Below are positions 9,732-58,729 of a stretch of 64,000 bases of DNA, piece by piece. Below the pieces are notes generated by a model. It searched no databases. It worked only from the letters and a program-made list of their open reading frames with translations, and was not told the DNA's origin. Position 1 is the stretch's first letter. Every line of letters starts with the position of its first letter. The translations under genes were made by a program, and so were the position numbers. This DNA is from Leptolinea tardivitalis (GTDB lineage Bacteria; Chloroflexota; Anaerolineae; Anaerolineales; Anaerolineaceae), in contig NZ_BBYA01000010.1 of assembly GCF_001050275.1 (NCBI RefSeq), forward strand, positions 1 to 64,000. Reading direction: 5' to 3'.

Positions 9732-9735
9732 TCAA
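9708..9735 (-). promoter_or_regulatory. Promoter of the RNHCP leader transcript
   Basis: TTGACA (9730-9735) and GATAAT (9708-9713) on the minus strand are 16 bases apart. The -35 box overlaps the stop codon of the upstream phosphate transporter gene. Confidence 0.65.
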
Positions 9736-42100: not shown

Positions 42101-42618
42101 TAGGCCAGTGTGCCATATAACAACATGACACCGAATAGCTCAATAAACCCTTCATTGCGAGTATATCGGCCATAGAACAACATATAGGGTGAGATTAAGA
42201 AAAGGAATGCAGCAATAAGCGCACCGTTTTTACCAATATAGCGGGGAAAATAGAAAAGAATAAAAGCAATGGCAGCGATGCTGAAGAGAGCTGCGGGAAC
42301 TCTGGAACTGAAATCCGAATCACCAAGCAGGAAATAAGAAGCCGCCACCAGATGAAATTGCATGGGTCCATGCGTTACAGGGTCATGGCGATACCCTTTC
42401 CCTGTATACAGGTCATAGGAAGGCACCACATGATTTACTTCATCATGACTCATTACCCGCAGGTCGATATGGTAGAACCTGGAAACAACTGCCAGGATCA
42501 GTATCAGCACAGACAGCATTAGACGGAGGTTGATGGATGGCAACACATTCATCAAGGGTCGATCTAAAATTCCTGGCTGTGCATTCCCCTCTTGAATTTC
42601 AGACTTGGCTAGATTCAT
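39166..42618 (-). CDS. TIGR03663/Agl23-like membrane protein fused to an NHL beta-propeller
   Basis: A 1150-residue protein. Residues about 30-780 form a multi-span glycosyltransferase-39-like membrane domain: SHDEVNHVVPSYDLYTGKGY (a DE-containing first loop as in GT39/PMT enzymes) and GHGPMQFHL-type segment, then FCTKETAFIYT. The C-terminal 300 residues hold six NHL-type blades (GEFDEPVGIAVDKDGLVYVA-like pattern, each ending in VADT/DSGNHRIQ). The N-terminal part resembles TIGR03663, linked in archaea to Agl23. The NHL part probably lies outside the cell. Both ends are complete. Confidence 0.8.
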   Translation of the reverse strand: MNLAKSEIQEGNAQPGILDRPLMNVLPSINLRLMLSVLILILAVVSRFYHIDLRVMSHDEVNHVVPSYDLYTGKGYRHDPVTHGPMQFHLVAASYFLLGDSDFSSRVPAALFSIAAIAFILFYFPRYIGKNGALIAAFLFLISPYMLFYGRYTRNEGFIELFGVMLLYGTLAYLETGKKAYLYLITVITVLHFCTKETAFIYTALILIFLALYFLQETSDLKSLDNRAHRRFTIFALLAVVCILVALGAGAWGASMNKPAEEGADAATTAVATAKVLPAWVKGCIYGGIGGALLLGVLSLTNLVSTVGWGKIRRLRSFDLLVLIITLILPQLVAFPIKLIGWDPLDYTSNGILRTGIFILVFLGISVAIGYWWKGTTWLKLAALFYTIYTVFYTTFFTNGRGFFTGIVGSLGYWLSQQGVERGSQPWYFYGLIQIPIYEYLAAAGTILAIYFAIRHRRFITWTSASPADPEAQVMLYEAGTSDWLDDAGDESELFVIRPVPVMALFVFWSIASLVSYSVAGEKMPWLTVHIALPMLLTAGWGLGYLVDTTPWRRVANRSGIIALLLIPVFLMAFAGSLGSLLGDKTPFNGNTIENLEATSAFIISVILATGSLFGILRLLWNFETNDLLRLFTAGIFAILAILTIRTSIMANYINYDTAKEYLVYAHAARGPKDILAQVEEISRRTTGGKNIVVSYDNDGLYPYWWYFRDYPNHRWYTDKPTRELKDSAVVLAGDTNFGKVDTILKDDFVQFTYMRLWWPNQDYFNLDWSRIKNAVLNPEMRAAIFDIWLNRDYSAYAKLTNNQSLTLETWQPAAKLRMYVRKDIASEIWNYGASPAPAAAAKVDPYAAKLINLQPAFVIGTGENSTAQFNKPRDLSVAPDGTIYVADSGNHRIQHLSSTGQVLQTWGTFGDISKGEAPGGTFNEPWAVVAGLDGSVFVTDTWNHRIQKFTADGQFIKMWGYFGQAEKPDAFWGPRGLAVDSKGNIYVTDTGNKRVVVFTSNGDFVTQFGTAGMEPGQFDEPVGIAVDKDGLVYVADTWNSRIQIFAPDATGTNFSMLRAWEVNAWKGQSLDNKPFIALDANNRILVADPEGYRVLKFDAEGKLITGWGDYSADVDGFGLVSGVAVSPDGSVWVSDGGNNRLLNFNLPPE

Positions 42619-44531: not shown

Positions 44532-45761
44532 TCAGATGATCCGAATATCCGGTATGGGAATAATGAACTTTCCACCGGCTTTACGGTAGGCATCCTGCTG
44601 GGTAACGATCTCTTCCCAGAAATTCCAGGTCAGAAGAAGGGCATAGTCCGGTTTGTCTTCAAGTAATTTCTCAGGCGCAAGGATTTCGAGATGAGACCCG
44701 GGAGTATAGTAACCCTGCTTGACGGTACTGCGATCCACCACATAATCCAGATAATTGCTGTTAATCTGGAAATAGTTTAAAAGGGTGGCACCTTTGGCTG
44801 ATGCCCCGTAGGCGGCAATCCGTTTCCCCTGACTCTTTAGATCTTTCAAAAGAGAGGTGAGGTCTTCTTTCAAGGTCTCAACCTTTTTTGCCAGGGTTAA
44901 ATAGACATCTGCCGTATTTACACCCCATTTTTCTTCTTCAGCCAGAAAATGCCTGACGGCTTCAGAAATTTTTGGTTCATGTCCCACAAACAGACGCAGG
45001 GAACCGCCATGGATAGGCAGCAGTTCCACGTCTTGCAGTGTGAGACCGTGGCGGATAAATAACTTTTGTAAAGCCGTTACGGTGTAATAACACAGATGCT
45101 CATGATAAATGGTGTCAAATTCCACATTGTCGACCAGTATCTTGCCATAAGGGCACTCTATTACCGCCACACCGGTGGCATTGAGCATTTTGGCAATGCC
45201 CTCCACAAAACCATTCAGATCAGCCACGTGAGCCAGCACATTGTTGGCATGCATCACGTCTGCCCCGTTGGGATACTTCTGCCGCAGAGTAGTGGCGAAA
45301 TCGCTGGTAAAGAATTCTGGGATGGTCGGAATACCCTGTTCGTTAGCCACTTTGGCAATATTTTCTGCCGGTTCAATACCCAGCACCGGTATACCTTTTT
45401 CCTGATAATGTTTCAATAGATACCCATCGTTACTGGCCAGCTCTACAACCAGATTGTGCTTATCGAGTTTCCGTTCTTTCACCAGACGAAACGCGATAGA
45501 ACGCGCATTTTCAATAGCTGTTGTTGAAAATGACGAGAAATAGAAATAATCTCGGAAAAGTTTCTCTGGTGAAACTGTTTCAGAAATTTGCAGAAGTTTG
45601 CAATGCGGGCAAAAATACAGGTCAAGGGGGAAAACCTCTTCCGGTTGCTGTGTTTGCTCTTTTGTTAATAATGCATTGGCCAGGGGAGTTTTTCCCAGGT
45701 CAAGGATTTGCGTCAAACCAGTTTCGCCGCAAGAACGGCATTTAATATCTTTTGCAGTCAA
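44532..45761 (-). CDS. Sugar C-methyltransferase (TylC3/NovU-like), SAM-dependent
   Basis: A 409-residue methyltransferase: N-terminal zinc site C-x2-C near 9 and C-x2-C near 54 (YFCPHCKLL), SAM-binding VVELASNDGYLLKHY near 105, and a C-terminal domain with KRIAAYGASAKGATLLNYF. This three-part layout is the NDP-hexose C-3 methyltransferase family (TylC3), which methylates 4-keto-6-deoxy sugars. TTG 45761 is used, six bases after AGGAAGG. It is divergent from the CDP-glucose genes, supporting a CDP-linked C-methyl 6-deoxyhexose. Confidence 0.85.
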   Translation of the reverse strand: MTAKDIKCRSCGETGLTQILDLGKTPLANALLTKEQTQQPEEVFPLDLYFCPHCKLLQISETVSPEKLFRDYFYFSSFSTTAIENARSIAFRLVKERKLDKHNLVVELASNDGYLLKHYQEKGIPVLGIEPAENIAKVANEQGIPTIPEFFTSDFATTLRQKYPNGADVMHANNVLAHVADLNGFVEGIAKMLNATGVAVIECPYGKILVDNVEFDTIYHEHLCYYTVTALQKLFIRHGLTLQDVELLPIHGGSLRLFVGHEPKISEAVRHFLAEEEKWGVNTADVYLTLAKKVETLKEDLTSLLKDLKSQGKRIAAYGASAKGATLLNYFQINSNYLDYVVDRSTVKQGYYTPGSHLEILAPEKLLEDKPDYALLLTWNFWEEIVTQQDAYRKAGGKFIIPIPDIRII

Positions 45762-45893
45762 AGTACGCCTTCCTGAATAGCTGATTTACAAAAGTACGCC
45801 GATGATTATAAAGGATTATTACCGGGTTATTTTCAATACCTGCAGGTTCAAGGTAAAATACACCTGTCATTCATGATTTCTTAAGGAAAACAG

Positions 45894-46664
45894 ATGCAAA
45901 CCATCATACTTGCAGGCGGACTAGGTACCAGATTGGCTGAAGAGACAGAAGTACGGCCAAAACCACTGGTGGAAATCGGTCATCAGCCTATTCTCTGGCA
46001 TATTCTGAAGCATTATAGTTACTATGGACATAATGAGTTTTTTATTGCCCTTGGGTATAAAGGAGAAATGATCAAGCGGTATTTCCTTGACTACTCAAAC
46101 CTGAGCGGGCAATTGACGATTGACATGAAAACCGGCCGGGTAATTTCGGAGCAATCGGAGTGTGAACCCTGGACGGTTCATCTGGTAGATACCGGTCAGA
46201 AGACCAATACAGGCGGCCGCGTTAAACGGCTTGCGCCCTTCTTGAAGAAAGAGACTTTCTTTATCACCTATGGAGACGGAGTGAGCAATATTAACCTCGA
46301 CGAATTGCTTGCCTTCCACCGCTCCCAGAAAAAGATGGTCACCATCACAGCCGTGCGTCCGCCGGCCCGGTTTGGCGGATTGGAGTTCGACGGCGATCTG
46401 GTGATGAAATTTACCGAAAAACCCCAAACCGGTGAAGGTTGGATCAATGGCGGTTTCATGGTTTGCGAACCCGAATTGCTCGACGTGATCAATAATGACC
46501 TGAGCAGTCTGGAAGCAGATGTGCTGGATTATCTGGCTTCTATAAATCAAATTTCGGCCTACCGCCACTTTGGATTCTGGCAGTGCATGGATACCCTGCG
46601 TGACAAAAAACTGTTGGAACAATTCTGGCAGGATGGAAATGCCCCGTGGAAGATATGGGAATGA
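45894..46664 (+). CDS. rfbF: Glucose-1-phosphate cytidylyltransferase
   Basis: RfbF makes CDP-glucose from glucose 1-phosphate and CTP. 256 residues, the family length. It begins [19 protein letters not shown] with the nucleotide-binding GGLGTRL, then [19 protein letters not shown] and [14 protein letters not shown]. It heads the polysaccharide locus, follows an AAGGAAA site, and overlaps the next gene by four bases (ATGA). TAAAAT near 45855 is the likely -10 box of the operon. Confidence 0.95.
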
Positions 46665-47653
46665 GCGAATTCTGGTTGGATCGTCCTGTTTTTGTGACCG
46701 GAGCCACCGGTCTGGTAGGTTCCTGGCTCGTCAGGCGGCTTCTGGAGCAAAGAGCTGATGTGATTTGCCTTGTGCGCGATTGGGTTCCCCAGTCAGAATT
46801 GACGCGTACCGGAATGATTAACCGCGTCAAAACAGTCCGCGGGGATGTGCGCGATCAGAAGCTGTTGGAGCGGATTCTGGGTGAATTCGAAATCGACACC
46901 GTCATCCACCTGGCTGCCCAGACCATTGTCACCATTGCCAACCGCAACCCGGTATCCACATTTGAAACCAATATTGGCGGAACCTGGGCATTGTTGGAAG
47001 CCTGCCGCAGAAGCCCCAAAGTCAAACAAATCGTGGTGGCGTCATCGGATAAAGCCTACGGCGATCAGGAAATTCTGCCCTACAATGAAGGCATGCCACT
47101 GCAGGGACGTCATCCCTATGATGCCAGCAAATCATGCGCTGACTTAATCGCCCAGACATACGGTATCACCTATGACTTGCCCGTGGTGATCAGCCGCTGC
47201 GGCAACTTCTATGGCGGCGGCGACCTGAACTGGAACCGGATCATCCCCGGCACCATCCGGTCTGTGCTCCGAGGACAGCGTCCGATCATCCGATCTGATG
47301 GGGAATACATCCGCGATTACTTTTATGTGGAAGACGGTGCAGCCGCCTACACCCTGCTGGCCGAAAAACTGGCGGCCATGCCCGAACTTCGGGGTACAGC
47401 CTTTAACTTCAGCAATGAAATTCAGGTGACTGTCTTGCAGGTTGTTGAAAAAGTATTAAAGCTGATGGGTTCAGACATGGTTCCCGATGTAAAAGGTGAA
47501 GCCTCCAACGAAATTCGTCACCAGTACCTTTCGGCCGAACGCGCCCGCGCGGTTCTCGGTTGGAAACCCATGTTCGATCTCGACGAAGGTTTGAAACGCA
47601 CGCTTGAGTGGTATAAGACCTTCCTGAATGAAACAGATAATTTGACGGCTTAA
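46661..47653 (+). CDS. CDP-glucose 4,6-dehydratase-like protein
   Basis: Short-chain dehydrogenase/reductase, 330 residues. [20 protein letters not shown] (about 9-28) is the NAD-binding loop, SSDKAYG and YDASKSCAD supply the Ser and the Tyr-x-x-x-Lys catalytic pair, and [20 protein letters not shown] matches the RfbG family. Its ATG overlaps the rfbF stop codon, which also identifies it as the next enzyme, converting CDP-glucose to the 4-keto-6-deoxy form. A five-codon longer start is possible. Confidence 0.9.
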
Positions 47654-47661
47654 GGGCAAAC

Positions 47662-48189
47662 ATGCTGTTTCAAAAAACAGAATTTGACGGCCTTTTCATT
47701 ATCGAACCAGAAAAGCATACGGATGAGCGTGGTTTCTTCGCCCGCACCTGGTGTGTTCACGAATTTGCCGATCACGGCCTGGTCAGTGACCTTGCCCAGT
47801 GCAGCATTTCGTTTAATGCCAGAAAAGGGACACTCCGGGGGATGCATTATCAGGTAGAACCATACCCCGAGACAAAAGTGGTGCGCTGCACAATGGGCGC
47901 CATTTTTGATGTAGTGATTGATCTGCGCCCTGGTTCGACCACGTACCGGAAATGGTTTTCTGTTGAGTTAAGTGCCGAAAATCGCCGGGCATTGTATATC
48001 CCGGATGGTATGGCTCACGGGTTTCAAACATTAGAGGATAACTCAGAGGTCTATTACATGATCTCGGAGTTCTATCATCCAGAATGTGCCCGCGGCATCC
48101 GCTGGAATGATCCGGCCATTGGAATTGAGTGGCCTATCGAGGGGAAAACAATTTCGGAAAGGGATGCTACTTTTCCAGTTCTTCCATAA
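47662..48189 (+). CDS. dTDP/CDP-4-dehydro-6-deoxyglucose 3,5-epimerase family protein
   Basis: RmlC-like cupin, 175 residues. RGFFARTWCVHEF (about 22-34), SISFNARKGTLRGMHYQ with the catalytic His, and YIPDGMAHGFQTL are the family motifs. Because the preceding genes make CDP-4-keto-6-deoxyglucose, it probably epimerises that instead of the dTDP sugar; this is inferred from context. The start follows AGGG, eight bases after the dehydratase stop. Confidence 0.9.
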   Translation: MLFQKTEFDGLFIIEPEKHTDERGFFARTWCVHEFADHGLVSDLAQCSISFNARKGTLRGMHYQVEPYPETKVVRCTMGAIFDVVIDLRPGSTTYRKWFSVELSAENRRALYIPDGMAHGFQTLEDNSEVYYMISEFYHPECARGIRWNDPAIGIEWPIEGKTISERDATFPVLP

Positions 48190-48330
48190 ACAATCCAGTT
48201 ATGAGACAAATAAACGTTTCCATTTGCAGTTACCGCTGAGATTGCGGATTTTCTTTACCCAATGGATGATACAATCCACCTGATAAGGCCAATCCTTATC
48301 AAACCGGTAAGGAAACAAAGAAAAATTCCA

Positions 48331-49110
48331 ATGTCTGATTTGTTAAATTCATCCAACTGCCAGACAAAATCCGAAAAAACTATCGTTATCTCGCAATCAA
48401 TGTATTTCCCATGGGTGGGAATGCTTGAACAGATTCGCCTAGCGGATTCGTATGTTTATTACGATGATGTCCAATTTTCTCATGGCGTCTCCAACAATCG
48501 AATTAATCGGATTCAGGTAAAGACCGAACAGGGTCAAAAATGGATGACGATACCCATCCGTGATTTCCATTTTGGCCAGAAGATTGATGAAGTCCTCATT
48601 GATGACCGTAAAGATTGGCGAAACCAACATCGTCAAATTCTTCAACAGGCGTACAAGGGGGCTCCGTTCAAAAATGAGATGCTTGAATTGGTAGATCGGG
48701 TATTCTCAAAATCATTTACGACTCTTGCTGATGTCGCAAGAGCATCCACAATGGAACTCGCAGAATACTTTGATATTGTTGAAGGAAAAATGTTCGTTGA
48801 TTCAAAAACAATGAACATCGGAGGAAGCAGCGATAAACGGGTTTTAGATATTGTTCTGGCATTGGGAGGGAATATCTATGTAACGGGGCTCGGTGCCAGA
48901 AACTATATGGATTTTGAAATGTTCAATACTGCCGGTGTTCAGGTTCGGTTCATGCAATACCGTTGCATACCATATCCGCAACTACACGGTGAATTTACAC
49001 CTTATGTGACAGGGCTTGATCTTGTGGCCAATTGCGGAAAAGAAGGGAAACCCTATATTCAATCGGAAGCAATTGATTGGAAAGATTTTTTAAGGATTAA
49101 TCATGAATGA
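48331..49110 (+). CDS. WbqC-family protein
   Basis: WbqC-like protein (PF08889), 259 residues. IVISQSMYFPWVGMLEQIRL near residue 17 and YYDDVQFSHGVSNNRIN are the family's N-terminal marks; LLELVDRVF and MQYRCIPYPQLHGEFTP follow. The family is common in O-antigen and polysaccharide loci. I know of no settled biochemical role. The start is uncertain; ATG 48331 is used because upstream codons do not resemble the family. The next gene overlaps its end by eight bases. Confidence 0.78.
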   Translation: MSDLLNSSNCQTKSEKTIVISQSMYFPWVGMLEQIRLADSYVYYDDVQFSHGVSNNRINRIQVKTEQGQKWMTIPIRDFHFGQKIDEVLIDDRKDWRNQHRQILQQAYKGAPFKNEMLELVDRVFSKSFTTLADVARASTMELAEYFDIVEGKMFVDSKTMNIGGSSDKRVLDIVLALGGNIYVTGLGARNYMDFEMFNTAGVQVRFMQYRCIPYPQLHGEFTPYVTGLDLVANCGKEGKPYIQSEAIDWKDFLRINHE

Positions 49111-49822
49111 GATTGACACTTTGGCAAAAGAATATTTGCCTGATGCGGCTACAGCAACAGAAAATGATCTGATCATGCATTGGTATCCACAACGAATCAT
49201 CAAGAGATTCGATCATTGTGATTCATTGCTCGAATTAGGGCTCGGACATGGATTTACGGCAGTTCTTTTCAACCCGGTATGTAAAGAACATATTGTCCTT
49301 GAAGGATCACAGACTGTTATTGAGAATTTCAATAAAAGCCATCCTGATTTCTCCGGTAATGTAATTCTCAGCTATTTCGAAGATTATGATACTGATAAGA
49401 CTTTTGACGTGATCGTAATGGGTTTCGTACTTGAACATGTGGACGATCCCAGGTTAATCTTAGAAAAATATAAAAAATATCTTAAACCGGGTGGGAAGAT
49501 GTATATCACTACACCCAATGCAAAATCCCTGAACCGACGTCTGGGGTTGGAATTGGGGAAAATTGATTCAATTTACAGCCTGAATTCAAACGATATCGCT
49601 TTAGGGCATAAACGTCAATTCTGTCGAGATACTCTGAAACAATTAATCATCGAATCAGGTTACAGGGTAACCTATGAAGAAGGCGTTTACCTCAAACCAT
49701 TACCTTTGGCAGTTTTAAAAACACTGGATGATTTTGAAGGTAACCTGCAAGCCATGCTAAAGGTAGGTGTGGACTTTCCGGATTTATGTGTTTCTCTACT
49801 CATGGAAGTAATTCCAGTATGA
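49103..49822 (+). CDS. Class I SAM-dependent methyltransferase
   Basis: A 239-residue Rossmann methyltransferase. LLELGLGHGFTAVLF near residue 38 is the SAM motif I, FDVIVMGFVLEHVDDPRLIL near 95 is motif II, and LKPGGKMYITTPNAKSLNRR near 124 follows. These match the UbiE/Methyltransf_11-23 type found in polysaccharide clusters. It overlaps the WbqC gene by eight bases and the next gene by four. Acceptor unknown. Confidence 0.85.
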   Translation: MNEIDTLAKEYLPDAATATENDLIMHWYPQRIIKRFDHCDSLLELGLGHGFTAVLFNPVCKEHIVLEGSQTVIENFNKSHPDFSGNVILSYFEDYDTDKTFDVIVMGFVLEHVDDPRLILEKYKKYLKPGGKMYITTPNAKSLNRRLGLELGKIDSIYSLNSNDIALGHKRQFCRDTLKQLIIESGYRVTYEEGVYLKPLPLAVLKTLDDFEGNLQAMLKVGVDFPDLCVSLLMEVIPV

Positions 49823-50697
49823 AAACAGCCGCAATTATTGGCGCCAACTCCATGCTTGGCAGCCGTTTGGAAGCGATTTTAAAGTCAGACGGTATTCGCG
49901 TTATCCGGGTCGGTCTATTTGATGGTGCTGATATTAAATTAGATTTAACCCGTGGTTTTCTTTCCCCACTTCCATCAGACCTAACAGCTGATACCGTATT
50001 TCATGTGGCATCTGCATTCGCCGATGATAGCCCACAGGGATTGCGAACGAATTTTTCAATAAACAGCGCCGGAAGTCTCTGGGCACTTGATCTGGCGCGA
50101 ATGACACAGGCAAAATCCTTGATATATGCTGGATCACTTTCTTCATTTGAAGGTCTGGAACCTGGCAAAATGACCTCCTATGGATTGACAAAAGCCCTGG
50201 CAGAAAACCTGCTTGATTGGGGAATGAAGAATCTGCAAGCAAGTTTCTGTAGTCTGCGGTACTCTCAGTTGTACGATACAGAAGGTCTTTGTTGTCAACA
50301 TCAGAAGTGGTTTGGGAGAATCATTGGTTATGCTTCTCGAGGATTGGATATTCATATGCCTGCATCGGAAGGAAAACGGAATTTCATTCACGTTGACGAT
50401 GCTGCACGTCTACTAATTCAGGCAAGTGAACACGTCATTTCAGGTATCCTCCCTGTTGTTCATCCAATAACTAACACATACGATGAAATAGCTCATATGG
50501 CGTATGCCATTTTTAATAAGGGAGGTCAGATAATCATTGATACTAAAAAGCCCCCTTTCAGACCGATTAATTTTCCTGAAACAGGCGAAACCTATAAATT
50601 ATTGCATTATGTCCCTGTGATCTCCATGGAAAGTGGTATAACACGAATACGAGACGAGGGGACCGCTTTAAAATTCGGCCCTCTGGACGTATCTTGA
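49819..50697 (+). CDS. NAD-dependent epimerase/reductase (SDR family)
   Basis: Extended short-chain dehydrogenase, 292 residues. AAIIGANSMLGSRLEAIL (about 4-21) resembles the NAD(P)-binding loop, GSLSSFEGLEPG and YGLTKALAENL hold the Ser and the Tyr-x-x-x-Lys pair, and NFIHVDDAARLLIQ follows. It may reduce or epimerise the 4-keto sugar. ATG 49819 overlaps the methyltransferase stop (ATGA); a longer frame upstream lies inside that gene. Confidence 0.82.
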   Translation: MKTAAIIGANSMLGSRLEAILKSDGIRVIRVGLFDGADIKLDLTRGFLSPLPSDLTADTVFHVASAFADDSPQGLRTNFSINSAGSLWALDLARMTQAKSLIYAGSLSSFEGLEPGKMTSYGLTKALAENLLDWGMKNLQASFCSLRYSQLYDTEGLCCQHQKWFGRIIGYASRGLDIHMPASEGKRNFIHVDDAARLLIQASEHVISGILPVVHPITNTYDEIAHMAYAIFNKGGQIIIDTKKPPFRPINFPETGETYKLLHYVPVISMESGITRIRDEGTALKFGPLDVS

Positions 50698-51686
50698 TGG
50701 AAACAAAAACCACCACAAATGAAATTACTGTTTTAGTGACCGGTGTTGGCGCCATTATCGGACAGGGCATCGTCAAATCGTTGCGGAAATCCGAAAAGCA
50801 TATCCGCATAATAGGTTTGGACAAAAACCGCCAGGCTCTTGGCCAATATGCCTGTGATGCGTTTTTTCCCAAACCAGATGGTGATGAAACTGAACCAGCT
50901 TATGTTGAGTTTTGGAAAGACCTGCTGCTGAATGAATCGATCGATCTTGTTCTTCCGGGTCTCGAAGTGGATGTATTTTTCCTAAATCAACATCGGCAAT
51001 CTCTGGGAAAATGTGGGGCAATCCTTGGATTAAATCGGTACGAGCTTATTGAACTCGCAAGGGATAAGTGGCTGTTTGGTCTTGAATTAGAAAATTCTGG
51101 TTTTGAACCAATCCCAACGATTTTGACTGATAGCTGGTTAGAATGTGTCCAAAAACTGGGGAACCCTCCATTTCTCATGAAACCCCGTCAGGGCAATGGT
51201 TCAAGAGGAATTATTCGCCTGGAAGACAGGGATGATTTTGAGTACTGGAAGAAGAAATGCGGCCCTGATTTTATGGTTCAGAAAATTGTAGGAAACGATG
51301 AAGAGGAATTCACTGTCGGAGCATTTGGTTTGAGTCACGGAGAATTACTTCCTCCAATAATTTTCCGCCGCAAGCTCTCTTCGGCCGGCAATACTCAGTT
51401 TGCTGAGGTAGTTGATGATGCCATTATTGCTGAAGCCACAAATCTACTCGGACAATATTTTCAACCAATAGGTCCAACTAATTTTCAATTCCGTAAAGAT
51501 CATAATAAAGCATTTTTATTGGAGATTAATCCCCGATTTTCCAGCAGCACATCTCTGAGGGCTGGCTTTGGCTATAACGAAGCAGATATGGCAATCGACT
51601 ATTACCTTTATGGGAAAAAACCTTCGGTACCTGTCATCACCACAGGACAAGGATGGCGATATTATGAGGATTTTTTTATTAAATGA
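50697..51686 (+). CDS. ATP-grasp domain protein (carbamoyl-phosphate-synthase-like)
   Basis: A 329-residue ATP-grasp ligase. TVLVTGVGAIIGQGIVKSL near residue 10 is the pre-ATP-grasp Rossmann motif of the CPSase-like type, FLMKPRQGNGSRGIIRLED (about 158) and FLLEINPRFSSSTSL (about 272) are ATP and Mg sites. Such enzymes link a carboxylate to an amine. Placed next to a perosamine-type aminotransferase gene, it could acylate an amino sugar, which is inference. The start overlaps the epimerase stop by one base. Confidence 0.84.
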   Translation: METKTTTNEITVLVTGVGAIIGQGIVKSLRKSEKHIRIIGLDKNRQALGQYACDAFFPKPDGDETEPAYVEFWKDLLLNESIDLVLPGLEVDVFFLNQHRQSLGKCGAILGLNRYELIELARDKWLFGLELENSGFEPIPTILTDSWLECVQKLGNPPFLMKPRQGNGSRGIIRLEDRDDFEYWKKKCGPDFMVQKIVGNDEEEFTVGAFGLSHGELLPPIIFRRKLSSAGNTQFAEVVDDAIIAEATNLLGQYFQPIGPTNFQFRKDHNKAFLLEINPRFSSSTSLRAGFGYNEADMAIDYYLYGKKPSVPVITTGQGWRYYEDFFIK

Positions 51687-52372
51687 TTGCCATCATTTCA
51701 GATATTCATGGAAATTTACCAGCTTTACAGGCTGTCTTGAAAAAGATCGCATCATTAGGTTGCGAGAATGTTCTCTCTTTGGGTGATGTAGTGGGATATT
51801 ATGCCCAACCCGGCGAATGTATCGATTTACTTCGCTTAAATAAAATTCCAAATATTATGGGTAATCATGATAGTTATATTGTTAATGGAACGAATTGTTC
51901 ACGCTCAAAAATTGTTTCTGAAATCATTGACTACCAGCGAAAAATCATTACACCTGATCAGGTAAAATGGCTCTCTGAATCAACCTCATGCATCATTGAA
52001 AATGGTGATTATTTTACTCATGGCAGCTGGAAGGACATGATTGATGGCTATCTGTATAATGTCTCTCCATCAGATTTTCCACAGGGCGCCATCCATTTTT
52101 TTGCCGGTCATACGCATGTTCAGTCTTTGATAAAAATCAAAGGTCAAACTTTTTGCAATCCAGGTTCTGTTGGTCAGCCACGAGATGGAGATCCCCGCGC
52201 CGCTTTTGCCACCCTTTCAGACAATGAGGTAATACTTCACCGGGTAGAGTATGATATCGACTTAGCCGCTTATCAAATGAAGAAGGCAGGTTTTCCGGAA
52301 TACTGTTATAAAAACCTTTACCTGGGTGCACAAATTGGCGGTCGGATAGACAGGATCACTATCAATTCATGA
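51683..52372 (+). CDS. Calcineurin-like metallophosphoesterase (YfcE/MJ0936 type)
   Basis: A 229-residue metallophosphoesterase. The dimetal motifs SDIHGN (6-11), GDVVGY, GNHDSY and GHTHVQ are all intact. It sits between the ATP-grasp gene and the CmcI-like gene, sharing ATGA overlaps with both neighbouring frames. An unusual partner in a polysaccharide locus; it may remove a phosphate from a sugar or cofactor intermediate, unproven. Confidence 0.88.
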   Translation: MIAIISDIHGNLPALQAVLKKIASLGCENVLSLGDVVGYYAQPGECIDLLRLNKIPNIMGNHDSYIVNGTNCSRSKIVSEIIDYQRKIITPDQVKWLSESTSCIIENGDYFTHGSWKDMIDGYLYNVSPSDFPQGAIHFFAGHTHVQSLIKIKGQTFCNPGSVGQPRDGDPRAAFATLSDNEVILHRVEYDIDLAAYQMKKAGFPEYCYKNLYLGAQIGGRIDRITINS

Positions 52373-52428
52373 TCTATGTATTTTGTTCGAGTTTCTTTTT
52401 AAAAGAACCTATCTCACATGGTGAAAAG

Positions 52429-53169
52429 ATGAATAAAAAAGAAGAATTTGAAAATGAAGTAAAAAACAATATACACCGGTTGGGTGAAACACAAAACCTA
52501 AGAGAGAAAACCATTGATTGGATGCTGGCTGTGGCAAAAGCAGGAAATTACACCTATAACTTTTCCTGGATGGGACGGCCAATCATTCAATTCCCGCAAG
52601 ATATAATGGCCATGCAAGAGATCATCTGGAAAGTTAAACCTCAATTAATCATTGAAGCCGGGATTGCCCATGGAGGTTCCCTGATTTTCTATGCCTCGAT
52701 GCTTGAATTACTGGGTGGTGACGGTATGGTTTTAGGTTTAGATATCGATATCCGTCCACACAACCGTATTGAAATCGAAAATCACCCCATGGCAAAACGA
52801 ATTAAGATGATTGAGGGTTCTTCCGTTGATAAGGCTGTTATCGGCCAGGTACATGCGTACGCAAAAGGCAAATCTCCCGTTATGGTGGTTTTGGATTCAA
52901 TGCATACTCATGAACATGTTCTTGGCGAATTGAAAGCCTATTCATCACTGGTGACAAAGGGCAGCTATCTTGTTGTGTTCGACACGTTGGTGGAAGATTT
53001 GCCCGATGATGTATATTCCAATCGTCCCTGGGGAAAAGGGAACAATCCCAAAACAGCGGTATGGGAGTTCCTAAAAACCAATGACCGGTTTGAAATTGAC
53101 AAGGAAATTGAAAACAAAATCCTTATCACCGTTGCACCAGATGGGTATTTGAAGTGCATAAAGGACTAA
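52429..53169 (+). CDS. CmcI-family (cephalosporin hydroxylase-like) methyltransferase
   Basis: A 246-residue CmcI-like protein. LIIEAGIAHGGSLIFYASML near residue 77 is the SAM-binding loop, VLGLDIDIRPHNR the acidic strand, VVLDSMHTHEHVLGEL and LVVFDTLVEDLP the downstream motifs. Relatives methylate sugar hydroxyls, and the family is misnamed for a single cephalosporin enzyme. The ATG at 52369, overlapping the previous stop codon, would add 20 unconserved residues; 52429 fits better. It is not a hydroxylase by motif. Confidence 0.82.
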   Translation: MNKKEEFENEVKNNIHRLGETQNLREKTIDWMLAVAKAGNYTYNFSWMGRPIIQFPQDIMAMQEIIWKVKPQLIIEAGIAHGGSLIFYASMLELLGGDGMVLGLDIDIRPHNRIEIENHPMAKRIKMIEGSSVDKAVIGQVHAYAKGKSPVMVVLDSMHTHEHVLGELKAYSSLVTKGSYLVVFDTLVEDLPDDVYSNRPWGKGNNPKTAVWEFLKTNDRFEIDKEIENKILITVAPDGYLKCIKD

Positions 53170-53171
53170 AA

Positions 53172-54299
53172 ATGGAGAACATTCCTGTAGCAGGCCCATG
53201 GATTACAGAGAAAGAAATAGCCTATGTTACTGATGCTGTTACGAACGCATGGTATTCCAATGCCAATATGTATCATCAACGCTTTGAAAAAGCGTTTGCT
53301 GAATATATTGGCGTGCAATATGCCATGGCACTGCCTTCATGCACATCAGCCATTCATCTTTCCCTGCTTGCGTTGGGTATCGGCCCCGGTGATGAAGTCA
53401 TTGTGCCAGATTGCACCTGGATAGCATCAGCGGCTCCAATCTCTTATGTGAATGCCACTCCGGTATTTGCTGATATTGATCCCAAAAGTTGGTGTATCTC
53501 CGCAAAATCTTTTGAAGAATGCATTACCCCGCGTACAAAAGCCGTCATTCCAGTAGATCTATATGGCAATATGCCAGATATGGATGCTTTACGCGAAATT
53601 GCCGCAAAACACAACATCGCCATTATTGAAGATGCCGCTGAAGCCATTGGTTCAACATACAAAGGGAAAAAGGCCGGCAGCTTCGGCGTGACCGGGGTTT
53701 ACAGTTTCCACGGCTCCAAAACTTTAACCACAGGAGAAGGTGGTATTCTTCTGACAGATCGCAAAGACCTGTATGACCGAATTTCCTTCCTGCGGGATCA
53801 CGGCCGGGCACCGGGTAATGCCACGCTCTTCTATAACTCTGAAGTGGCCTATAAATACAAAATGAGCAGCATGCAGGCAGCGCTTGGTCTGGCCCAGCTA
53901 GAACGCATAGATGAACTGATCGCCAAAAAACGTGAGACGTTCAAATGGTATTACGAACGTCTGGGAAATATTGACGGCATCACCATGAATTCCGAGGCGT
54001 CTGATGTTTTCAATTCTTACTGGATGGTAACCATCATCCTTGATCCAAAATTTGGTATCAAGAAAGAAGCTCTTCAAGAAAAGCTGGGTTTACAAAACAT
54101 CGCCACCCGTCCCTTCTTCCATCCGTTAAGTTCTTTACCTGCCTATCAAAATCTTCCACAGGCAGGACACGCCCATGAACGCAATGAAGTCAGTTATGCC
54201 TTGAGCCCTTATGGCGTCAATCTTCCCTCGGCCTTGAACCTGACAGAATCTCAGGTGGATTTTGTCTGTCAGTCGGTAAAACAGATCATTCAAGGATAA
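53172..54299 (+). CDS. DegT/DnrJ/EryC1 aminotransferase (perosamine-synthase-like)
   Basis: PLP-dependent sugar aminotransferase, 375 residues. SCTSAIHLSLLALGIGPGDEVI near 55 (family start motif), VEDAAEAIGSTYKGK-type segment and SFHGSKTLTTGEGG with the Schiff-base Lys near 182 are diagnostic. The profile is close to GDP-perosamine synthase (RfbE/PerA), which aminates C4 of 4-keto-6-deoxy sugars. Its real nucleotide partner may be CDP here. AAGGAC precedes the ATG, three bases after the previous stop. It ends the overlapping run. Confidence 0.88.
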   Translation: MENIPVAGPWITEKEIAYVTDAVTNAWYSNANMYHQRFEKAFAEYIGVQYAMALPSCTSAIHLSLLALGIGPGDEVIVPDCTWIASAAPISYVNATPVFADIDPKSWCISAKSFEECITPRTKAVIPVDLYGNMPDMDALREIAAKHNIAIIEDAAEAIGSTYKGKKAGSFGVTGVYSFHGSKTLTTGEGGILLTDRKDLYDRISFLRDHGRAPGNATLFYNSEVAYKYKMSSMQAALGLAQLERIDELIAKKRETFKWYYERLGNIDGITMNSEASDVFNSYWMVTIILDPKFGIKKEALQEKLGLQNIATRPFFHPLSSLPAYQNLPQAGHAHERNEVSYALSPYGVNLPSALNLTESQVDFVCQSVKQIIQG

Positions 54300-54526: not shown

Positions 54527-55132
54527 ATGGCAGTAAAAATTCATCCTACATCTGATGTATCATCCGAAGCTGTTATTGGGGATGGTACCGCTATATGGTT
54601 ATTCTGTCAGATTCGACCGGGTGCCCATATTGGGAAAAATTGTAATCTGGGTAAAGGTGTATATATCGATAATGATGTACACATTGGCGATCATGTAAAA
54701 CTGCAAAATAATGTGTCTGTATATCACGGCGTTACATTAGAAGATGGCGTTTTTGCCGGACCGCATGTCTGTTTCACCAATGATATGCGTCCCCGGGCTG
54801 TCAACCCGGATTTAAGTGTCAAAAGCACCGATGACTGGGTGGTAACCAAAACCTTGGTGAAGAAAGGCGCTGGTCTTGGTGCCAATTCCACTATCCGCTG
54901 CGGAGTTACCATCGGTGAATGGGCCATGGTAGGTTCAGGAAGTGTCGTCACCCGTGATGTGCCCGACCACGCTCTTGTATATGGTAATCCTGCCCGCCTG
55001 CACGGATTTGTCTGTGCCTGTGGTGAAAAACTAAAAAAAGGCGAGATCAAAGGGAAAATGATGGCCGCCGAATGTCCGGCTTGCCATAGCATTGTTGATA
55101 TTCCACTTGATCTCTGGGAGAAAATAAAATGA
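54527..55132 (+). CDS. UDP-3-amino sugar N-acetyltransferase (WbpD-like, left-handed beta-helix)
   Basis: A 201-residue hexapeptide-repeat acyltransferase. It begins MAVKIHPTSDVSSEAVIGDG, has several [LIV]-G-x-x-x-x turns (GAHIGKNCNLGKGVYID), the catalytic-type PHVCFTNDMRPRAV, and ends with a CACG/CPAC zinc-ribbon-like tail. It matches WbpD, which acetylates UDP-3-amino-GlcNAcA. The neighbouring aminotransferase, oxidoreductase and dehydrogenase complete that pathway. GAAAGGAG precedes the ATG. Confidence 0.88.
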   Translation: MAVKIHPTSDVSSEAVIGDGTAIWLFCQIRPGAHIGKNCNLGKGVYIDNDVHIGDHVKLQNNVSVYHGVTLEDGVFAGPHVCFTNDMRPRAVNPDLSVKSTDDWVVTKTLVKKGAGLGANSTIRCGVTIGEWAMVGSGSVVTRDVPDHALVYGNPARLHGFVCACGEKLKKGEIKGKMMAAECPACHSIVDIPLDLWEKIK

Positions 55133-56211
55133 TTAATATGGCCCGGCCGCAAATCGGCGATGATGAAAAAAAAGCTGTACTGGAAGTGATGGATTCTGGA
55201 ATTATCGCCCAGGGTCCACGAACCAAAGCGTTTGAAGAAGCATTTGCTTCTATGTGTACCACCAAACATGCCATTGCCACATCGTCTGGCACAACAGCTC
55301 TGCATATCGCCATGCTGGCGAACAAAATAGGAGCTGGCGATGAGGTTATTACATCTGCATTCACCTTCATTGCCTCTGCCAACAGCGTTATCTATGCCGG
55401 CGGTAGACCGGTTTTTGTGGATATTGACCCGAAAACGTTCAATATTGATGCCGATCTTATCGAAGCAGCCATCACACCGAAAACAAAAGCCATTCTTCCC
55501 ATCCATCTCTTTGGACTGCCCTGCGATATGGAAAAAATTATGGCTATTGCGAAAAAACACAACCTGCTGGTGATTGAAGATGCCTGCCAAAGCCATGGTG
55601 CCACATTCAAAGGAAAGAAAGTAGGCTCCTTTGGTACCGGAACATTTTCATTGTATCCCACCAAGAATATCACGTCAGGTGAAGGCGGCATGATCACCAC
55701 CAATGATGATGCCGTTGAAGAAGCCTGCCGGGTGATTCGCAATCATGGTATGCGCAAACGCTACTACCACGATGAAATCGGATATAACTTCCGCATGACC
55801 GATATGCATGCCGCCATTGGGCTTGCCCAGATTGCAAAACTGGAAATGTTCAATCAGAAACGGCAGGAAAATGCAGCTTTTTATGACAAAAATCTGAAGG
55901 GTGTGGTCACCCCGTTTGTTCCCGAAGGCTGCCAGCATGTTTATCACCAGTACACTGTTCGAGTTCCGGGCGGAAAGCGGGATGCTCTGCGTGCCTACCT
56001 GGCCGAGCATGAGATTGGTTCAGAAGTGTATTATCCGGTACCCATCCACAAACAGGGTTTTTATCAGACAGATTATGGTTACCATATTTCGCTTCCTGAA
56101 ACCGAAAAAGCTGCCAGTGAAGTATTATCGATCCCTGTTCACCCGGGCATTTCAGCAGCCGACCGCGAAAAAGTTGCTGCCACGATTAATGAATTTATGG
56201 CCAAAGGATAA
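55129..56211 (+). CDS. DegT/DnrJ/EryC1 aminotransferase (WbpE-like)
   Basis: PLP-dependent sugar aminotransferase, 360 residues. SSGTTALHIAMLANKIGAGDE, IEDACQSHGATFKGKKVGSFG and LYPTKNITSGEGGMITTND (with the Schiff-base Lys near 183) are present. It resembles WbpE, which aminates C3 of UDP-3-keto-GlcNAcA. It overlaps the acyltransferase gene by four bases and is followed by the oxidoreductase gene after three bases. Confidence 0.9.
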   Translation: MINMARPQIGDDEKKAVLEVMDSGIIAQGPRTKAFEEAFASMCTTKHAIATSSGTTALHIAMLANKIGAGDEVITSAFTFIASANSVIYAGGRPVFVDIDPKTFNIDADLIEAAITPKTKAILPIHLFGLPCDMEKIMAIAKKHNLLVIEDACQSHGATFKGKKVGSFGTGTFSLYPTKNITSGEGGMITTNDDAVEEACRVIRNHGMRKRYYHDEIGYNFRMTDMHAAIGLAQIAKLEMFNQKRQENAAFYDKNLKGVVTPFVPEGCQHVYHQYTVRVPGGKRDALRAYLAEHEIGSEVYYPVPIHKQGFYQTDYGYHISLPETEKAASEVLSIPVHPGISAADREKVAATINEFMAKG

Positions 56212-56214
56212 TCT

Positions 56215-57219
56215 GTGACGAAGACATTGAAAACCGCAGTGATTGGTGTTGGATCCATGGGGAAGAACCATGCCCGCGTCTATTCCGAATTGGCAGAATC
56301 CAATCTGGTCGGTATTTCAGATGCAAATCTTGATACGGCGCAATCCATAGCCAAAATTTTTGGGACAAATGCCTATTCCGACTATCATGAATTGCTGGAA
56401 AAGGAAAAACCTCAGGCTGTCAGTGTGGCTGTTCCAACGGCACTTCATGAACAGGTGGTTACCGATGTTCTTCATTCCGGCGCCCATGTGCTGGTTGAAA
56501 AACCCATAGCGGCTACCATCGAAGAAGGACAACGGCTGATCAAACTGGCAAAGGAATTGAACCGGAAATTAATGGTCGGGCACATCGTACGCTTCAATCC
56601 GGCCATTCAGGAATTGAAAAAACGACTGTCTGCCGGTGATCTGGGACGAATCTACCAGGTATTTTGCCGTCGGGCTGGACCATTCCCTGCCCGCATCCGT
56701 GATGTTGGCGTAGTCATTGACCTGGCTCCGCATGATGCCGATATTGTCCGTTTCCTCACCGAAATGGATCCAATCCGGTTGTATGCTGAAACAGAACAGC
56801 GTATTCATACGGATCATGAAGACCTTCTGCTGGGAATGCTGCGCTTTCCTGATGGCGTCACGGCGGCTCTGGAGATCAACTGGTTAACCCCTACGAAAAT
56901 CCGCGAGGTGCTTGTGTTGGGCGAACGCGGCCTTTTCCGTGTGGATGACCTGACCCAGGACCTGTACTTCTATGAAAATGCCCAGGCGTCCGGCCTCACA
57001 TGGGATTCACTGAAGAACTTGCGCGGTGTCAGCGAAGGCAGTATGTCACGTTTTGCCATTCAACGATTTGAACCGTTGAAAGCCGAATTGCAGGGTTTCT
57101 TGAAAGCCGTCTTGGAAGATACCCCTGTCCCGGTGTCTGGCGAAGACGGTCTGGCTGCCCTGCGAATTGCTCTGGCACTGGTTGAAGCCGGAACAAACCA
57201 TCAGGTAATAAATTTCTAA
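56215..57219 (+). CDS. Gfo/Idh/MocA oxidoreductase (WbpB-like)
   Basis: NAD-dependent oxidoreductase, 334 residues. AVIGVGSMGKNHARVYSEL near residue 8 is the dinucleotide motif, VEKPIAATIEEGQRLIKLA the Lys-Pro signature near 93, and a GFO_IDH C-terminal sheet follows. It would oxidise C3 of the UDP-uronic acid. The GTG start follows AAAGGA. Slightly longer relative to WbpB, with no insertions seen. Followed by a strong terminator. Confidence 0.88.
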   Translation: MTKTLKTAVIGVGSMGKNHARVYSELAESNLVGISDANLDTAQSIAKIFGTNAYSDYHELLEKEKPQAVSVAVPTALHEQVVTDVLHSGAHVLVEKPIAATIEEGQRLIKLAKELNRKLMVGHIVRFNPAIQELKKRLSAGDLGRIYQVFCRRAGPFPARIRDVGVVIDLAPHDADIVRFLTEMDPIRLYAETEQRIHTDHEDLLLGMLRFPDGVTAALEINWLTPTKIREVLVLGERGLFRVDDLTQDLYFYENAQASGLTWDSLKNLRGVSEGSMSRFAIQRFEPLKAELQGFLKAVLEDTPVPVSGEDGLAALRIALALVEAGTNHQVINF

Positions 57220-57228
57220 TATTTCAAT

Positions 57229-57266
57229 AGCAGGGTGTGAGATCTTATTCCCACTCACTCCCTGCT
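57229..57266 (+). terminator. Terminator after the WbpB-like gene
   Basis: AGCAGGG pairs with CCCTGCT, and an inner GTGAG/CTCAC stem adds five pairs; TTTGATTT follows. Confidence 0.75.
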
Positions 57267-57394
57267 TTGATTTAATCTGAAAGGCGAAATTTCTCTCTTA
57301 TAAAATAAATAAACAGAAAAGCAGAAGTAGCCAGTCAACCACATTTGATACAATAAGCTGGTTTCTTTTATAAAATTTTTAATTTTTTCTACAC

Positions 57395-58729
57395 ATGGAT
57401 ATCCTGATGTCGCAAAAACAACTTGAGAGCTTAATTGAAACGAAAAAAGCCAAACTGGCCATAATTGGATTAGGGTATGTTGGGCTGCCAGTTGCGGCCA
57501 TGTTTGCCGAAAAAGGTTTTGATGTCCTGGGGATGGAAATCCGCGAAGATCGCGTACATACGATCAATTCAGGAAAATCGCCTATCGAAGGTGACGAACC
57601 CGGTCTGGAAGAATTGCTGAAAAAAGTGGTGGGTGGGAAAAAACTGCATGCCACCTCAAATTATGAAGACTTGCGCAACCGGGACATTATCCTGATTGAT
57701 GTTGAAACTCCGGTAGATGAAACGCATACACCACGATATGCCGCCTTGAAATCGGCCTGCAACAGCCTTTCGACCGTACTGAAACCGGGTGCTTTGGTCA
57801 TCATAGAATCCACAATCGCTCCAGGAACCATGAAGGGAACCGTCCTGCCTTTGCTGGAAAAGAATGGCCTCAAATCAGGCCGTGATTTTCTGCTTGGAAA
57901 TTGCCCCGAGCGGGTAATGCCGGGGAAACTGCTTGCCAACCTGCGTCAGATGAGCCGCGTTTGCGGTGGCGACTCCCCGGACACATCTGCCATCATGATG
58001 GCTCTTTACCGGAATATCGTGGAAGCTGACCTGGATGCCGCCGATTGGGCTACGGCAGAACTGGTAAAAACTGTCGAAAACGCCTATCGCGATGTGCAAA
58101 TTGCCTTTGCCAATGAGGTTGCCCTGATCTGCGAACAGGCCGGGGCGGATGTCATGAAAGTAAGAGAATTGGTCAATAAAAGTCCCTTCAGGCAAATGCA
58201 CATTCCCGGTGCCGGAGTCGGAGGGCATTGTATTCCCAAAGATCCGTGGCTTCTGGCATATGGAGTGGCTGGAAGCGAGGTCCCCTTGCGTTTGATTCCG
58301 GCGGCCCGTGCGATCAATGACCAGATGCCCCATCACATGGTACGGTTGCTCGAAAAAGCTTTAGCCGGTCAGAGTAAAAAATTGAACGAATGTAAAGTAC
58401 TGGTTCTGGGCTATGCCTATCTAGAAAATTCTGATGACACCCGCAACAGCCCCTCAGCGGCCTTGATTGGCGGTCTGGATGCTCTGGGAGCAGAAGTTGT
58501 AATTCATGATCCTTATGTGAATGAATACAAGGGGGATGTATTTGAAAAAGCTGCCGGTTGCGATGCCGTGGTGGCGATGGTCAGGCATGATGAATACGTA
58601 AAAATCAATCTCGATAGATTGAAATCTACCCTAAAGACACCTGTACTGATTGATGGGCGGCGAGTATTTGATGCCAAATCTGCCCGGCAGTCCGGTTTTG
58701 ACTACTGGTCCGTTGGGCTGGGGAGATAA
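57395..58729 (+). CDS. UDP-N-acetylglucosamine 6-dehydrogenase family (WbpA/WecC-like)
   Basis: Nucleotide sugar dehydrogenase, 444 residues. LAIIGLGYVGLPVAAMFAEK near residue 20 (NAD motif), IESTIAPGTMKGTVLPLLE, the catalytic-Cys region IPGAGVGGHCIPKDPWLLAY near 270 and the C-terminal SLGYAYLENSDDTRNSPS-type segment. It makes UDP-GlcNAcA, the first step of the uronic-acid pathway whose later enzymes lie just upstream. It has its own upstream region after a terminator. ATG 57407 is an alternative start. Confidence 0.9.
   Translation: MDILMSQKQLESLIETKKAKLAIIGLGYVGLPVAAMFAEKGFDVLGMEIREDRVHTINSGKSPIEGDEPGLEELLKKVVGGKKLHATSNYEDLRNRDIILIDVETPVDETHTPRYAALKSACNSLSTVLKPGALVIIESTIAPGTMKGTVLPLLEKNGLKSGRDFLLGNCPERVMPGKLLANLRQMSRVCGGDSPDTSAIMMALYRNIVEADLDAADWATAELVKTVENAYRDVQIAFANEVALICEQAGADVMKVRELVNKSPFRQMHIPGAGVGGHCIPKDPWLLAYGVAGSEVPLRLIPAARAINDQMPHHMVRLLEKALAGQSKKLNECKVLVLGYAYLENSDDTRNSPSAALIGGLDALGAEVVIHDPYVNEYKGDVFEKAAGCDAVVAMVRHDEYVKINLDRLKSTLKTPVLIDGRRVFDAKSARQSGFDYWSVGLGR

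Follow-up and report, generated by a model that had tools for sequence, protein, structure and literature searches.

The first 64,000 nucleotides (nt) of contig NZ_BBYA01000010.1 of Leptolinea tardivitalis, hereafter the window, carry on the plus strand at 48331-54299 seven closely packed genes, in which the original prediction saw a possible route to a new acylated amino sugar. Comparison with other genomes indicates that the predicted biosynthetic unit is larger than these seven genes and that those at 44532-48189 belong with it. Together, 44532-54299 probably makes one kansosamine-like 4-amino sugar carried on cytidine diphosphate (CDP), which would be N-acylated by an exchangeable cassette made up of WbqC, a methyltransferase, a short-chain dehydrogenase/reductase (SDR), an ATP-grasp ligase, and a phosphoesterase. 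The genes concerned are:

44532..45761, minus strand: TylC3-like sugar C-methyltransferase with a Methyltransf_13 zinc domain and Methyltransf_14 (PF08484 193 bits, PF08421 82 bits), grouping with the C-methyltransferases of related loci
45894..46664, plus strand: rfbF, glucose-1-phosphate cytidylyltransferase (TIGR02623, 361.3 bits, cut-off 300.25)
46655..47653, plus strand: rfbG-like CDP-glucose 4,6-dehydratase (best NCBIfam model TIGR02622)
47662..48189, plus strand: rfbC-like sugar 3,5-epimerase (TIGR01221, 186.2 bits, cut-off 155.75)
48331..49110, plus strand: WbqC (PF08889, 202.8 bits), 259 residues, with a BshC-like/class I tRNA-synthetase-like predicted fold; candidate amide ligase
49103..49822, plus strand: S-adenosylmethionine-dependent methyltransferase (Methyltransf_23), opening the four-gene run that ends with the phosphoesterase; 57% and 65% identical to its counterparts in loci L118 and L158, respectively
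49819..50697, plus strand: extended SDR of the epimerase/reductase family (PF01370), keeping its cassette position in L118 and L158
50694..51686, plus strand: ATP-grasp ligase, carbamoyl-phosphate-synthase-like (PRK12767 group)
51683..52372, plus strand: metallophosphoesterase (PF12850) with intact metal-binding motifs
52369..53169, plus strand: CmcI/rhamnosyl O-methyltransferase family, probable sugar O-methyltransferase (PF04989, 316 bits)
53172..54299, plus strand: DegT-family sugar 4-aminotransferase, DegT1 (PF01041)

All seven reading frames of the block are intact, none being interrupted, and each matches in Pfam the family first named for it (from 5' to 3', WbqC, Methyltransf_23, Epimerase, ATP-grasp, Metallophos_2, RMNT_CmcI, and DegT); the ATP-grasp gene matches PF15632 and a PylC-like N domain. 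The near-zero spacing is equally real: WbqC overlaps the methyltransferase gene by 8 nt, the next four junctions are 4-nt overlaps (ATGA three times, TTGA once), and 2 nt separate CmcI from DegT1. The claim of a GC content below that of the neighbors stands in part. The block has 42.2% against 47.8% window-wide, and 7 of 291 overlapping sliding windows of the same length have a GC content as low or lower, but sequence at 59-64 kb is similarly AT-rich (35-45%) and low GC extends beyond the block.

Sugar-forming genes sit directly upstream, so the unit extends beyond the seven genes; taking them as complete had cut off rfbF, rfbG, rfbC, and the minus-strand C-methyltransferase gene. Functions for C-methylation (PF08484/PF08421), 3,5-epimerization (TIGR01221), 4-amination (PF01041), and O-methylation (PF04989) are found in one cluster, and the seven genes probably cover the acylation, O-methylation, and amination steps of a longer CDP-sugar pathway. 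The nearest solved chains of DegT1 are the perosamine synthases 3bn1 (E 1.7e-89) and 3dr7 (E 2e-89), and none of the NCBIfam aminotransferase models reached its cut-off with this protein. Matches to CmcI at E 1e-20 occur in 13 of 400 genomes of the phylum, the window's own genome counted. The closest, 68% identical, is in genome G130, where a single cluster holds rfbF (62%), rfbG (75%), a C-methyltransferase gene, rfbC (68%), a different ATP-grasp gene (30%), an SDR gene, a TylF-family gene, CmcI, and DegT (69%). The window's rfbG-like gene is 75% identical to its counterpart in the Chloroflexi locus L050.

Recurrence of the cassette and its slot beside CmcI

An alignment scan with CmcI, using one genome per GTDB species, gave at least 579 confirmed candidate loci, the best 80 of which were analyzed; they span many phyla plus archaea, and 24 are from Pseudomonas. 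In the locus tables, a gene counts as present on the strength of a tblastn match to a reference protein (E 1e-5 to 1e-8) rather than of a curated annotation. The genes rfbF, rfbC, and the C-methyltransferase gene occur together in 44 of the 51 CmcI loci of at least 19 kb. One of the 80 loci, L118 from Pseudomonas subflava, has WbqC, methyltransferase, SDR, ATP-grasp, phosphoesterase, and CmcI genes in the window's order, with the same core (identities to the window: WbqC 41%, methyltransferase 57%, SDR 41%, ATP-grasp 46%, and phosphoesterase 53%). A second Pseudomonas locus, L158, also matches the full set and has an additional PhyH gene and methyltransferase gene. In both, the cassette is placed between DegT and CmcI inside the CDP-sugar cluster. 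The original prediction would have been undermined by finding its genes scattered in relatives; they are instead contiguous and ordered, and because the same order recurs elsewhere, the set is more than a chance association.

The cassette is also found apart from this sugar. With the phosphoesterase profile at E 1e-30, matches were obtained in 16 of 298 genomes of the genus of L118, giving a set composed of L118 and 15 stretches of 10.8 to 19.5 kb. The phosphoesterase gene adjoins an ATP-grasp gene in all 16, and the run methyltransferase-SDR-ATP-grasp-phosphoesterase is complete and in order in 14 (L168 has no methyltransferase gene, and the SDR was not detected in L172). WbqC lies on the cassette strand in 14 of the 16; L171 has none, and in L172 the sole match, 22% identical, is on the opposite strand. 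In the twelve complete loci beyond L118 and L158, the aminotransferase is merely 30-33% identical to the references. In L161, the one of the twelve to which the assignment applies, it is of the WecE type, a transaminase for deoxythymidine diphosphate (dTDP)-4-amino-4,6-dideoxygalactose (dTDP-Fuc4N), with 640.5 bits for a cut-off of 434.85, which implies that the cassette is not bound to a single sugar. On these comparisons, the cassette is a portable unit, separable from the CDP sugar.

The surroundings of L161 suggest where the product may go. At L161:2550-12213, the cassette and its aminotransferase gene lie between a gene for a 1178-residue GT2-domain protein and genes that we read from their sequence, with no tool assignment, as flgF and flgG. 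Several similar loci also have the cassette next to the large protein's gene. With its apparent flagellar rod genes, L161 looks like a flagellin glycosylation island, in which the ATP-grasp cassette would replace the known 3-hydroxybutyryl genes. For comparison, we took seven stretches (L175-L181) that have a relative of the large protein (53-69% identical) and no phosphoesterase gene on the stretch. Four of them (L175-L178) have WbqC, a TylF-like gene, and an aminotransferase gene, which may stand in the cassette's place; at L177:12663-16185, the one stretch scanned with Pfam, the TylF-like gene and WbqC lie with genes for an FAD oxidoreductase of the glycine-oxidase/D-amino-acid-dehydrogenase kind and for a small methyltransferase, and the neighboring aminotransferase is of the same type. 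Of the reference genes, L181 shows just the aminotransferase gene besides that of the large protein, and L179 and L180 show the large protein's gene alone; the source genomes of L180 and L181 carry the cassette elsewhere. A more distant island, L184, combines methyltransferase, PhyH, GNAT, a 326-residue unassigned protein, WbqC, and aminotransferase.

In the 80 CmcI loci, the position next to CmcI is filled by a hexapeptide acyltransferase, by either of two kinds of formyltransferase, by a GNAT acetyltransferase accompanied by PhyH dioxygenase and methyltransferase genes, by a small methyltransferase, by an ATP-grasp set, or alternatively by an SDR, in some cases together with a second methyltransferase. 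To score this slot, a module aminotransferase was defined by a 44% identity limit, slot genes by their distances, and the hexapeptide gene by a position within 800 nt upstream of CmcI; these limits were chosen after inspection of the gene table, mainly to omit DegT genes of 27-36% identity lying about 4 kb downstream in Pseudomonas, and the Fisher P values treat each locus as independent, relatedness being ignored. A gene for an N-substituent is present in 36 of the 43 loci with a module aminotransferase versus 3 of the 37 without, whereas a ketoreductase-type SDR shows the reverse distribution (1/43 vs. 29/37). With Pseudomonas excluded, the corresponding figures are 23/30 versus 3/26 for N-substituent genes and 1/30 versus 18/26 for the SDR. 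On a plain reading, the slot enzyme would substitute the amine when the sugar is aminated and could reduce the ketone when it is not, and the window's ATP-grasp set is in the predicted amine-substituting slot. The proposal of an acylated amino sugar, with ATP-grasp as the probable acylating enzyme, is thus well supported by the way N-substituting enzymes replace one another and track the aminotransferase.

Several observations weigh against a CDP-amino sugar acylated by this cassette. The rfbG-like gene scores below the TIGR02622 cut-off (217.1 vs. 278.45 bits), and the C-methyltransferase is encoded on the strand opposite to the rest of the window's pathway. Two of the 16 phosphoesterase loci have no aminotransferase (L168, 19.5 kb; L172, 10.8 kb), and three of the seven comparison islands (L179-L181) have neither WbqC nor another N-substituent gene. 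The slot rule itself is broken in both directions, by seven of the 43 loci with an aminotransferase and no scored N-substituent gene (L081, L087, L091, L096, L104, L117, and L131) and by three of the 37 with an N-substituent gene and no module aminotransferase (L075, L077, and L088); several of these exceptions are contig ends.

In the window's own phylum, homologs are few. ATP-grasp matches at E 1e-20 occur in 7 of 400 genomes, its own counted, and the best other is 34% identical. In L056, from a genome (G019) of the window's own family, genes for a phosphoesterase (26%) and an ATP-grasp protein (27%) lie side by side at 8898-10564, near SDR and DegT genes. A plasmid search found no plasmid genus shared by the ATP-grasp and phosphoesterase matches.

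Phosphatase partners, WbqC, and rival readings

The original prediction found no known place in such a route for the phosphoesterase, a view that its neighbors contradict: besides adjoining ATP-grasp in every phosphoesterase-positive genome of the L118 genus, it has a counterpart of another fold. The metal-binding motif set of calcineurin-like metallophosphoesterases (D-x-H, GD, GNHD, H, and GHxH) is complete in all 17 homologs, the window's included. An alternative ATP-grasp cassette is present in five loci (L067, L075, L076, L106, and L119), in which the phosphoesterase was not found. Directly after the ATP-grasp gene, all five encode a domain of about 114 residues resembling protein-tyrosine and dual-specificity phosphatases (PTP/DSP), which runs in one open frame into an SDR (L067:7986-9203 and L076:7845-9101, for instance; the L106 fusion begins with an unusual start codon). 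The domain has a C-x5-R-S signature, with C63, R69, and S70 invariant in the five sequences, and phosphatases, mainly protein-tyrosine and dual-specificity ones, make up 57 of the 60 solved chains listed for its profile (best E 4.4e-6). A Pfam scan of the whole fusion (G130 copy, E 0.001) returned no phosphatase family among its matches. Because two unrelated phosphatase folds are each paired with ATP-grasp and an SDR, we argue that a phosphomonoester is a real intermediate, and a phosphatase step in the pathway looks real from these gene pairings. The simplest inference is that the acid enters carrying a phosphate, which it would lose before or after coupling.

WbqC, likewise said to have no known place, is in the window's order in both L118 and L158, and in 23 WbqC loci sampled within the phylum independently of the CDP-sugar cluster, a DegT aminotransferase gene lies within 6 kb in 16, on the same strand in 15 of these. 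The window's genome has two other WbqC genes (L064:9615-10310 on contig C8 and L065:9760-10449 on contig C1), each with a DegT gene within 1.2 kb. AlphaFold2 models of the window WbqC and of a 36% identical relative are of high predicted confidence (pLDDT, the predicted local distance difference test, 92.3 and 94.5, respectively). When the Foldseek candidates were ranked with VIA-align, a ranking confined to those candidates that could miss other folds, BshC came first for both: Z 13.9, 3.8 A over 227 residues for the window protein with 4wbd (next row 8.3) and Z 14.3, 3.4 A over 222 of 236 residues for the relative (next row, class I lysyl-tRNA synthetase, 11.3). Both models have the predicted Rossmann/HUP core fold of the BshC type; WbqC is BshC-like by predicted fold and outside the BshC sequence family, and it has 259 residues where BshC has 540. 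BshC presumably adds cysteine to glucosamine-malate in bacillithiol synthesis, according to the part of a 2015 review covered here (PMC4360819).

We tentatively propose that WbqC is the founder of a group of small BshC-like amide ligases joining amino acids to the 4-amines of nucleotide sugars. Here it would work with an ATP-grasp/phosphatase pair that adds and then dephosphorylates an acid, giving a doubly acylated branched amino sugar, and cassettes would be swapped to change the tips of surface glycans, possibly flagellar ones. Fourteen of the 15 WbqC-positive CmcI loci have no ATP-grasp gene scored near CmcI, so that something else must need WbqC there, and 11 have a GNAT or formyltransferase gene. 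Because such transferases need a free amine, their company and that of an amino-acid-oxidase-like protein suggest, as a hypothesis, that WbqC adds an amino acid and that the amine of this amino acid is modified afterwards.

A rival account, which we consider quite possible, casts WbqC in an accessory or regulatory role, its fold being an old nucleotide-binding one, and leaves amide formation to ATP-grasp alone. The points that favor it also tell against a ligase. The five ATP-grasp/DSP loci yielded no WbqC, which is thus not required for every ATP-grasp cassette, and in 7 of the 23 WbqC loci the stretch holds no aminotransferase gene. A sequence link to BshC was not found either: none of 16 WbqC sequences matched the BshC model PF10079 at E up to 10, WbqC was compared by hhalign with six BshC sequences and gave probabilities of 0.1-0.2% in two alignments. 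A WbqC alignment, A7, leaves out the L061 sequence, which has a stop in frame. The proposed ligase pathway is further weakened in that Foldseek by itself gave no match to the WbqC model at E 0.001 and that the activity of BshC had no in vitro demonstration according to the same part of that review (PMC4360819). An accessory role accords poorly with the loci in which WbqC occurs with no ATP-grasp gene scored, with the 23 residues invariant among the 16 WbqC sequences (Q22, W28, R60, and D230 of the window protein being among them), and with the fold match, well above the next row for one model and above it for the other.

As for precedents, no description of WbqC function was found in the parts of the open-licence literature covered here. 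The N-acetylglycyl-Qui4N of Shigella dysenteriae type 7 was dropped as a candidate precedent for WbqC, 'wbq' being absent from the literature checked. In BFVD, five predicted viral proteins share the fold of a WbqC model from L126 (E 0.001 or better, down to 1.2e-16). A phage record, MT838042.1:2826-3455, the sole one matched, encodes a protein 26% identical to the window WbqC.

Directly downstream of the block, 54527-58729 encodes a hexapeptide acetyltransferase-like protein, a second DegT protein (DegT2), a GFO/Idh/MocA dehydrogenase (best model UDP-GlcNAc 3-dehydrogenase, below cut-off), and a nucleotide-sugar dehydrogenase, as for a uridine diphosphate (UDP)-diacetamido-uronic acid. This neighborhood enters into two further rivals. 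In the first, the cassette acts on the sugar itself, ATP-grasp being a kinase or carboxylating enzyme and the phosphoesterase trimming a phosphorylated sugar or nucleotide intermediate, and N-acylation falls to a separate enzyme, for example the hexapeptide protein at 54527, whose gene starts 227 nt downstream of the block. ATP-grasp proteins do include kinases, and the profile built from the window protein and its relatives weakly matches an inositol phosphate kinase (E 0.0062) besides matching carbamoyl phosphate synthase, RimK/LysX, and amino-acid ligases; the window protein scores 230 bits with NF009402 (PRK12767 group, carbamoyl phosphate synthase-like; cut-off 218). We nevertheless regard action on the sugar as unlikely: ATP-grasp cassettes share their slot with N-acyl and N-formyl transferases and recur beside another aminotransferase type, and the hexapeptide gene overlaps DegT2, followed by both dehydrogenase genes, in what appears to be a second amino-sugar set. 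In the second, it is this adjacent same-strand set, and not the CDP sugar, that the cassette serves. This is very unlikely, since the cassette overlaps CmcI, itself 2 nt from DegT1, and lies inside the CDP-sugar cluster in L118 and L158. Finally, the low GC of the block and the few homologs in the phylum might be taken to mean that polysaccharide genes were acquired laterally and brought together by chance, sharing no function, but this is scarcely credible given the gene overlaps, the intact motifs, and a six-gene order that also occurs in Pseudomonas.

Elsewhere in the window, an asparagine-synthase-like gene (GATase plus Asn_synthase; 61323-63311) lies within the polysaccharide cluster, and an AsnB-like gene is near CmcI in L052 and L096. 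At 39169-42618 on the minus strand, a 1150-residue protein has an N-terminal part like PMT_2/Agl23 and, close to its C-terminus, NHL beta-propeller repeats.

Proposed pathway and known systems

The gene content, its conserved order, the swapping of the slot, the intact catalytic motifs, and the predicted fold come from comparison; from these we infer the reactions, the acid, the sugar configuration, and the pairing of enzymes with amines. RfbF and RfbG would make CDP-4-keto-6-deoxyglucose, to which the C-methyltransferase would add a methyl group, probably at C3; RfbC would epimerize C3/C5, DegT would convert the 4-ketone to an amine, and CmcI would carry out O-methylation. The cassette would build a small acid or aminoacyl group and join it to the 4-amine, a role that acetyl-, formyl-, or GNAT-type transferases would have elsewhere. 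Within it, ATP-grasp would turn a carboxylate into an acyl phosphate and then an amide, and the phosphatase would remove a phosphate ester from the acid (a 3-phosphoglycerate-type acid, for example) or from the coupled product. The SDR and the methyltransferase may reduce or epimerize the acyl chain and methylate it, and WbqC, given its BshC-like predicted fold, may catalyze a second amide formation, possibly joining an amino acid to the sugar amine.

On 4-amino sugars, N-acyl groups act as strong antigenic determinants, and to our knowledge few enzymes are known to install groups other than acetyl, formyl, and 3-hydroxybutyryl. An ATP-grasp/phosphatase cassette whose order is common to the window genome and Pseudomonas, beside at least two kinds of aminotransferase, is a concrete enzyme set to test, and the WbqC family gains a structural lead towards its function. 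No description of the cassette was found in the parts of the open-licence literature covered here.

Kansosamine is 4-amino-4,6-dideoxy-3-C-methyl-2-O-methyl-hexose of L-manno configuration, a structure reportedly given by Hunter et al. in 1984 that would need the window's core steps; its acyl group in Mycobacterium kansasii is 2-methoxypropionyl. Locus L100:1785-10726, from a Mycobacterium metagenome-assembled genome, has the full CDP core with PhyH, methyltransferase, GNAT, and WbqC, a set that could build such a group. CmcI matches at E 1e-50 occur in 10 of 133 Mycobacterium genomes. The WbqC set was found in none of the nine CmcI loci beyond the L100 genome, which does not help the reading proposed here; five have a ketoreductase-type SDR near CmcI, one of them together with DegT. 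On gene content, the Mycobacterium sample appears neither to support nor to settle the link with kansosamine.

The lipooligosaccharide of M. kansasii bears N-acyl kansosamine (PMC4403928). In Table 1 of that article, its cluster includes a glucose-1-phosphate cytidylyltransferase, an NAD-dependent epimerase/dehydratase, a rhamnose epimerase, and a methyltransferase, marked as having no M. marinum counterpart. The cytidylyltransferase, the dehydratase-family gene, and the rhamnose epimerase are shared with the window; unlike it, the M. kansasii cluster has no ATP-grasp or phosphatase listed in the text examined, which does not assign these genes to kansosamine (PMC4403928). Beyond this article, the open-licence texts examined gave only reference-list entries for kansosamine.

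Other N-acylated 4-amino sugars share part of this logic. Perosamine synthases acting on guanosine diphosphate (GDP) sugars are the nearest solved relatives of DegT1 and follow the same 4-amino-4,6-dideoxyhexose logic. The N-acylated perosamine of the Vibrio/Brucella type differs in its GDP route, in having no C-methyl group, and in receiving its acyl group from a single transferase. The viosamine island for the flagellin of Pseudomonas syringae (vioA, vioM, vioT, vioS, vioB, vioR, and acp) concerns a methylated 4-amino-4,6-dideoxy sugar whose amine carries a small acyl group, and the content of the island varies among strains; in contrast to the window, the sugar is carried on dTDP, 3-hydroxybutyryl is supplied by acyl carrier protein-dependent enzymes, and the gene list in the part of the article covered here has no ATP-grasp, WbqC, or phosphoesterase (PMC3927599). 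A homology of the window's methyltransferase to VioM was considered and rejected, as only their sizes agree (239-243 vs. 241 residues). Finally, although sfmABCDE of Shewanella oneidensis belongs to a NeuB-type nonulosonic acid pathway, with phosphoesterase and WbqC unmentioned in the text, it contains a methyltransferase and an ATP-grasp protein that normal modification of flagellin requires (PMC3765264).

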